From: Streptomyces sp. NBC_00510
GTDB lineage: Bacteria > Actinomycetota > Actinomycetes > Streptomycetales > Streptomycetaceae
NCBI GenBank assembly: GCA_036013505.1
Contig: CP107851.1
Coordinates: forward strand, 2,418,001-2,482,000
Length of the DNA stretch: 64,000 nt
Direction: 5' to 3'
Shown: positions 45,377-46,852 of the stretch, in pieces
Numbering within the stretch: position 1 is the stretch's first letter
Layout of the letters: every line of letters begins with the position of its first letter
Position numbers and translations under genes: made by a program
The notes under the pieces: model-generated
What the model saw: only the letters and a program-made list of their open reading frames with translations
Databases searched by the model: none
Told to the model about the DNA's origin: nothing

Positions 45377-46852
45377 TCAGGCGACGAAGATGTCGAGCGA
45401 CGGGCGCATCTTGGCGCAAACGCTCAGGATGTCGTGTACGACGTGGCCTTCGAATGAGTCGAACGCAGTCGGGTCGACCTCCTTGCTGTCTACCGCAGGG
45501 TAGGCCGTCTGAGTCAGCAGGTAGTCGAATCGAGGCGCCCACTTCCGTGCTCCCAGGCGGGCCGTGGTCGAGCAGTTGTCGACCATGTACGCAATGCCCC
45601 GTGCGTGCATGTAGGGGTTGAGGGAATCGACGGCCTCGATAACCGACTCGTTGGCGATCTCGGAGTACGGGTGGTCCTGCTCCATGAGGAAGTCGACCTG
45701 GGCCATCATGACGCCGCAGAAAACGCCGGCGGTGAAGGGGTTCAGGGGTCCATCATGGTCGCCTCGTTCGGCCCGTACCTGCTGACCTACCCGCCACATG
45801 TCGGCCCGGTCGATCCGGCCCATGGGGAACCGCGACAGGCGCTGCCCTGCGAGGATGACGCTGCGGATCTCGTTCCCCAGGCTCACCTCGTCGTAGATCT
45901 CGGCGATGAGTTCCATGCCTACCGGGTAGGCCGCGGCGTAGGCGTCCGCGAACTCGGCCTTGCCCTCGGAGTCGAGGTGCTCGTAGACACCGATGAGGCC
46001 CTTGGTGGAGATGATCGTGGAGATCGGTCCGGTGACGCTCTCCACGGAGTGGCGGTAGGCGTCGGCGCCGGTCATCCCCTGGCTGATGTAGCGGCGGTAC
46101 AGGCTCTCCACGATGCCGTGCACGCCGGCGAGCAGGATCGCGCGCTCACCGGTGAGGTCGGACAGGTACTCCGACTCCAGCGTTGTGCGGAAGGTGAAGG
46201 GGGCGCCCAGTGCGACCGACCAGCCCAGCGCCCGCTCAACTGCCCGGCCGCTGACGTCCTGGTGCACAGCAAAACTGGCGTTGATCCCAGCCCCGTTGAC
46301 GGTCGCGCCCTGCACGTACAGCGCGCGCACCGAGGGGCCCATGCCCTTGGGACACACCGCGATGACGTCCACGCCGGGAGGGAACTCCTCTCCGACGGCG
46401 GAGAGATGGCCCAGCAGGAAACCGTGCGAGAGCCCGAGGGTGGCACCTGGACGCAGCGCTTGGAACACCCCGCGGAAGAGCTCGGCCTGGGCGGCGTCGG
46501 AGATCAGCAACAACACCATATCCGATGCGGCGATGACCTCGAACATTTCGCCAAGAGTGCCGTCTTCCTCGGTGAACCCTGCTTCGCGAGCCGCAGCCGC
46601 GGAGGACGAACCGGTTCGTAGACCAACCACGACCTTCACCGCGCCGTCGAGGGAGTCACGCAGGTTCTGCGCCTGGGCCGGGCCCTGAGAACCCCAGCCG
46701 ATGACGGCTATCTGGTTGACCCCTTCGAAAGCGGCGGGCAGCCGTCCGAACAGGTGCCGACCACCTCGGACGATCGTTTCCTGCTGACCACCAAGGGTGA
46801 TGTGCTCGGTGTCAAAGACAGCGCTGGTGAAATCGAGTTCCGCCGATGGCAT
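45377..46852 (-). CDS. ilvC: Class II (long-form) ketol-acid reductoisomerase, plant/enterobacterial type
   Basis: 491 residues from the ATG at 46852, with GAGGAA upstream. This is the class II length; Streptomyces housekeeping IlvC is class I, near 330 residues. It is unusually close to plant KARI by memory: NADPH loop [19 protein letters not shown], then [72 protein letters not shown], the acidic metal-site segment, and [20 protein letters not shown]. It reduces and isomerises 2-acetolactate or 2-aceto-2-hydroxybutyrate in valine/isoleucine/leucine synthesis. As an extra form beside monooxygenase and GNAT genes it may be pathway-specific or a resistant copy. Confidence 0.9.

Follow-up and report, generated by a model that had tools for sequence, protein, structure and literature searches.

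A plant-type class II ketol-acid reductoisomerase, probably an acquired accessory enzyme, in a plasmid-like region of Streptomyces sp. NBC_00510

Streptomyces sp. NBC_00510 encodes a ketol-acid reductoisomerase (KARI) of the plant-type class II in addition to KARIs of class I. The gene lies on the minus strand at 45377..46852 of the 64,000-nucleotide stretch of DNA analyzed here (the window) and is assigned from its reading frame, Pfam domains, structure matches, sequence identity, tree position, dN/dS and conserved residues. It is probably a working accessory enzyme that was acquired horizontally, is borne by plasmids, brings a kinetic benefit and, in most of its relatives, is influenced by a protein with a MEKHLA domain; this is the reading we favor, with somewhat better than even confidence.

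The gene is an uninterrupted frame of 491 residues that begins with ATG at 46852, ends with the stop codon at 45377-45379 and contains no internal stops. A Shine–Dalgarno-like AGAGGA, read by eye, is found 8 nt 5' of the ATG (46861..46866, minus strand), and an alternative GTG start at 46894 would give a protein of 505 residues. Pfam detects KARI_N (2.2e-32) and two stretches of KARI_C (2.8e-34). KARI_N, the N-terminal NADPH-binding Rossmann domain, spans residues 47-217 (46202..46714, minus strand) and conserves the plant NADPH-loop residues R79, S82 and S84. The first knot domain is matched by KARI_C over residues 226-363 (45764..46177, minus strand) and holds the metal ligands D232 and E236. 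The KARI_C-matched part of the second, duplicated knot domain, the hallmark of class II, lies at 45524..45727 (minus strand; genome profile match at C1:2463524-2463727), and this domain carries E402, E406 and S428. With about 490 residues, one Rossmann domain and duplicated knot domains, the protein has the class II build, and the earlier note had described the frame exactly.

That note had called the enzyme plant/enterobacterial-type, of which only the first half holds. The top solved-structure matches are the chloroplast KARIs of spinach (1qmg) and rice (3fr7), aligned over residues 5-490 (E ~1e-193, ~648 bits) with identities of 62% and 61%, respectively. Conversely, the class II KARI of E. 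coli (1yrl) aligns over residues 42-259 only, with 63 bits. The window KARI thus groups with the plant-type enzymes, and an enterobacterial-type identity is rejected. E. coli IlvC, like the KARI of E. coli-like class II that has been reported in a variant of Mycobacterium tuberculosis (PMC8985424), shares the class II length and the duplicated knot domain, but this is another class II lineage, which aligns with the window protein in its N-terminal part alone. The cut-offs of the NCBIfam ilvC equivalogs are not reached (TIGR00465, 196.7 bits against 226.15; PRK05225, 68 against 713), presumably because class I and E. coli-type sequences were the basis of these models. NCBI names the close plasmid relatives ketol-acid reductoisomerase. 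Compared with the spinach and rice enzymes (1qmg/1yve and 3fr7), whose active-site and NADPH-loop residues it shares, the window KARI has no transit peptide and, like the bacterial relatives listed, lacks a 6-residue FYEKEG loop.

All 17 substrate, metal and cofactor positions that were checked are the same in the window KARI and in spinach KARI, and they are nearly invariant among 101 plant-type sequences. In spinach numbering, these include the metal ligands D315, E319, E492 and E496, the NADPH-loop residues R162, S165 and S167, and H226, P251, K252, M254, L323, L324, L501, C517 and S518. Only three conserved positions are altered, all conservatively (G49A, G242A and V486L). Pairwise dN/dS within the clade of the window KARI is 0.08-0.31, at dS values of mostly 0.6-1.2, which shows that the plant-type gene is maintained. 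With the catalytic residues all kept as well, a pseudogene can be dismissed, and the enzyme, as judged from its sequence, is almost certainly active.

The genome of the host is a single contig of 10.15 Mb. Besides the window KARI it carries class I enzymes at C1:3.58 Mb and at C1:8.71 Mb, which brings the number of KARIs in the host to three. A check for a class I ilvC in the same genome, proposed in the earlier note together with the view that the class II enzyme is additional to a housekeeping class I enzyme, was therefore answered twice over. These class I genes share 99.5% identity over a stretch of exactly 983 bp that lies inside the coding region, and their flanks are unrelated, a pattern that indicates that duplication or gene conversion took place very recently. 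Class I KARI is present in 35/35 genomes of the genus and the plant-type enzyme in 2/35; class II is thus not the normal sole enzyme of this lineage. Both types occur together in all seven actinobacterial clade hosts that were checked, the host genome included, whereas all six distant hosts checked (from the Acidimicrobiales, Myxococcota, Chloroflexota, Latescibacterota and Spirochaetota, and Desulfobulbus) have the plant-type enzyme only. Plant-type KARI is therefore the housekeeping enzyme of many bacteria and an extra one in this lineage. Actinoplanes solisilvae carries two plant-type KARIs besides class I, one with and one without MEKHLA (L151, L153). A third kind of extra KARI, with a frame of about 330 residues and a KARI_C match of only 69 bits, is found in three other genomes of the genus (L138-L140; G005:C63:32535, G004:C23:15265 and G027:C1:3254851).

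Plant-type KARI is found in 15/395 genomes of the family (the two from the genus and 13 of a separate clade) and in 2/396 genomes of a phylum-wide sample. In the scan of species genomes, the nearest relatives come from Streptomyces, Actinoplanes and Virgisporangium (72-80% identity), followed by the Myxococcota, Chloroflexota, Latescibacterota, Spirochaetota and Desulfobulbaceae (61-68%). In a quick tree with SH-aLRT support and no bootstrap, the window protein falls inside an actinobacterial clade of 11 sequences (support 100) whose sister is a group of three Acidimicrobiales sequences (93), and the plants branch elsewhere. The phylogeny that the earlier note had asked for thus assigns the enzyme to a clade of the plant-type family that is made up of accessory KARIs of actinobacteria and is distinct from the plants, and there is no sign of transfer from plants. 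A second, independent plant-type clade, on a long branch (0.86) that also stands apart in the tree, comprises the KARIs of 13 Streptomycetaceae genomes (L094-L106), which are 59-62% identical to the window KARI; several copies lie ~0.7-1.2 Mb from the contig end in chromosome-sized contigs. At 13/13 of these loci, a LysR-type regulator of one family that resembles E. coli IlvY is divergent to KARI, the ilvY–ilvC gene order of E. coli, and no link to MEKHLA is seen. The window KARI differs on this point too, since no IlvY homologue was found in the window and the divergent gene is a GNAT acetyltransferase.

Several members of the window clade are carried by plasmids. KARIs of this clade are located on three Streptomyces linear plasmids, those of NBC_01707 (312 kb), S. 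mirabilis NBC_01248 (1.03 Mb) and NBC_01450 (377 kb); transposases surround the gene on the last, and the protein from the S. mirabilis plasmid is identical to that of S. diastatochromogenes. Phage records gave only short, partial, class I-like matches, and carriage by phages is not indicated. The window shares with the NBC_01707 plasmid (NZ_CP109191) KARI, an MFS transporter (83%), MctP (84%) and a GNAT protein (75%), and its block of monooxygenase, acetyltransferase and sigma factor genes at 41322-43824 is 83.8% identical in DNA to 291375-293873 of that plasmid. A MobF/TrwC relaxase and a CHAT gene of the window match other Streptomyces plasmids. The window is a plasmid-like region within a chromosome-sized contig, and the description of the locus as an accessory region is supported. 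The stretch at 17297-21633, which encodes the CHAT-domain protein and its neighbors, shares 92.7% identity with a plasmid from Streptomyces sp. Caat 7-52 and may include a caspase-like defense gene.

The scattered occurrence of the gene, its shifting neighbors, the transposases around several copies and the interruption of the MEKHLA gene in S. mirabilis and S. diastatochromogenes could also mean that the housekeeping gene of other bacteria is temporarily riding on plasmids with no special benefit. This neutral explanation is unlikely, as it sits poorly with low dN/dS at dS near 1, with a fully conserved set of catalytic residues and with the repeated overlap with MEKHLA.

On the same strand as the window KARI lie genes for an SsuE-type FMN reductase (40261-40851), an HsaA-like flavin monooxygenase (41325-42611), an acetyltransferase-like protein (42599-43660) and an ECF sigma factor (44052-45143), and a GNAT acetyltransferase is encoded divergently from KARI (47456..48334, plus strand). 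From the monooxygenase and GNAT genes, the earlier note had suggested a pathway-specific supply of branched-chain precursors. A published precedent is ilvC2 of S. viridifaciens, which adjoins the valanimycin cluster and acts selectively on the precursors of valine (PMC4353338), and in the window the flavin monooxygenase and FMN reductase are only 3-6 kb from KARI. However, that precedent is a class I enzyme inside an ilvBNCE operon. Among the ORFs scanned, no AHAS, dehydratase, aminotransferase, decarboxylase, other ilv or leu gene, NRPS, PKS or otherwise recognizable biosynthetic cluster, valine-derived or not, was found beside the window KARI. The monooxygenase comes closest to HsaA-type hydroxylases and Rv3094c, and the reductase resembles SsuE; they belong to other families than those of a valanimycin-like cluster, which is rejected. 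The neighbors of KARI differ at every other clade locus: the adjacent GNAT has no homologue at any of them, the ECF sigma factor has no counterpart there (one weak sigma-factor match came from a distant locus), and on NZ_CP109191 the monooxygenase block, at 291 kb, is ~157 kb away from KARI, at 133 kb. The proximity of monooxygenase and KARI in the window is thus not conserved, an operon with the monooxygenase or GNAT genes is discarded, and the suggestion of a dedicated precursor supply is unsupported and improbable. A scan for promoters and terminators gave no sites, and no conserved upstream regulatory DNA was seen across the clade beyond the MEKHLA reading frame. Two pairs of related genes were noted in the window: paralogous acetyltransferase-like genes at 42599-43660 and 60949-61800, both resembling a GNAT near KARI on NZ_CP109191, and two similar alpha/beta hydrolase genes (57116-57934 and 62411-63271) on either side of a catalase gene, which represent a local duplication.

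The second role that had been proposed is that of an inhibitor-resistant copy for self-protection, that is, an additional KARI unaffected by a natural inhibitor of the class I enzyme, with the gene serving on plasmids as a resistance determinant alongside efflux pumps. A lone duplicate of a single pathway step on plasmids would be consistent with this role, as would the MFS genes near KARI on NZ_CP109482 (directly upstream) and NZ_CP109191, and a pocket motif that is PKGMGP in the plant-type enzymes is PKGPGH in the two class I KARIs of the host, Met being replaced by Pro. Plant KARIs, however, are targets of known KARI inhibitors, and the active site of the window enzyme is the same as theirs. 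Moreover, no co-located cluster of an inhibitor-producing type was recognized in the window, the MFS gene beside KARI is not conserved at other loci, and no self-resistance gene for KARI was found described in the open-licence literature. Self-protection is accordingly unsupported and given only a small chance, and an accessory enzyme with a kinetic benefit remains the preferred explanation.

In 7/11 distinct loci of the clade, KARI adjoins a gene for a MEKHLA-domain protein. MEKHLA is otherwise known mainly from the HD-ZIP III factors of plants. The gene (Pfam PF08670, E 2e-48 and 6e-37) directly precedes plant-type KARI at L012, at L093/L108 and on the NBC_01707 plasmid; it precedes KARI in interrupted form in S. 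mirabilis and S. diastatochromogenes; and at L015, L016 and L017 it lies after KARI, the two genes overlapping by 4 bp (GTGA/ATGA). The interruption on the S. mirabilis plasmid (L146:11059-11897) and at L013 is ~300 bp long with a short edge duplication, like a small transposable insertion. MEKHLA is rare, occurring in 5/395 Streptomycetaceae genomes and in 1/396 across the phylum, so adjacency at this frequency cannot be due to chance. In the host genome, the class I duplicate at 8.71 Mb (C1:8711764-8713186; L133:9699-11220) lies downstream of a TetR gene and shares an 8-bp overlap with a MEKHLA gene. Conversely, no MEKHLA gene or remnant was found beside the window KARI, and strong tblastn matches at 45.5-46.4 kb were rejected as out-of-frame KARI artifacts. 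The gene is also absent at L014, on the NBC_01450 plasmid (L147) and beside the second copy of Actinoplanes solisilvae (L151), and thus it is not needed for the persistence of the KARI gene. The KARI-linked MEKHLAs do not form one clade, and 4/6 MEKHLAs of the family have no adjoining KARI; the pairing was therefore gained or lost on several occasions. The L012 MEKHLA, modeled with a pLDDT of 77.5, shows a PAS fold whose closest matches are LOV domains. In the stretch compared by eye with the cysteine motif of LOV domains, most members have GLPSRLS, which contains no cysteine and makes a photo-adduct unlikely. We tentatively propose, at somewhat less than even confidence, that MEKHLA and accessory KARI make up a mobile module of two genes, not reported before, in actinobacteria, in which a small, translationally coupled protein of PAS/LOV fold, perhaps a sensor of flavin, redox state or another ligand, controls or acts with KARI. 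Such a module would accept either class I or plant-type class II enzymes, and the window would hold the KARI half alone, with a class I version elsewhere in the genome.

The kinetic argument comes from characterized enzymes. KARI is the slowest step of the branched-chain pathway, and the KM for acetolactate is ~11 uM in plant KARIs, whereas that of Streptomyces class I enzymes is 0.8-12 mM (PMC5940873; PMC4353338). An accessory high-affinity role is favored for these two reasons. High affinity in the window KARI is an extrapolation from plant enzymes with which it shares 62% identity, and the value of the gene is probably kinetic. Judging from its conserved active site, the enzyme most likely uses NADPH and Mg2+ to turn acetolactate and acetohydroxybutyrate into the dihydroxy acids, alongside class I; a second KARI of high affinity would draw flux through the slowest step whenever acetolactate runs short or class I is limiting. 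The gene travels on Streptomyces linear plasmids and in plasmid-like regions, and in most relatives KARI is probably co-expressed with MEKHLA and regulated or modulated by it; the window copy stands alone. The physiological need that it serves can only be guessed, since no pathway partner genes accompany it.

Second KARIs besides the housekeeping one have been described in S. coelicolor and S. viridifaciens, but these ilvC2 genes are class I paralogues that arose by gene duplication (PMC4353338), whereas the window KARI is a foreign class II enzyme. The enzyme family itself is known; a mobile KARI of a second class in class I hosts and its coupling to MEKHLA were not found described in the open-licence literature, where no paper naming both MEKHLA and KARI was found. 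KARI is a target of herbicides and antibiotics. Actinobacteria with both class I and plant-type KARI offer a natural test of why two architectures are kept, and such hosts may supply high-affinity KARIs for the production of isobutanol or antibiotic precursors. The repeated coupling of KARI to MEKHLA is a first clue to the function of bacterial MEKHLA proteins.
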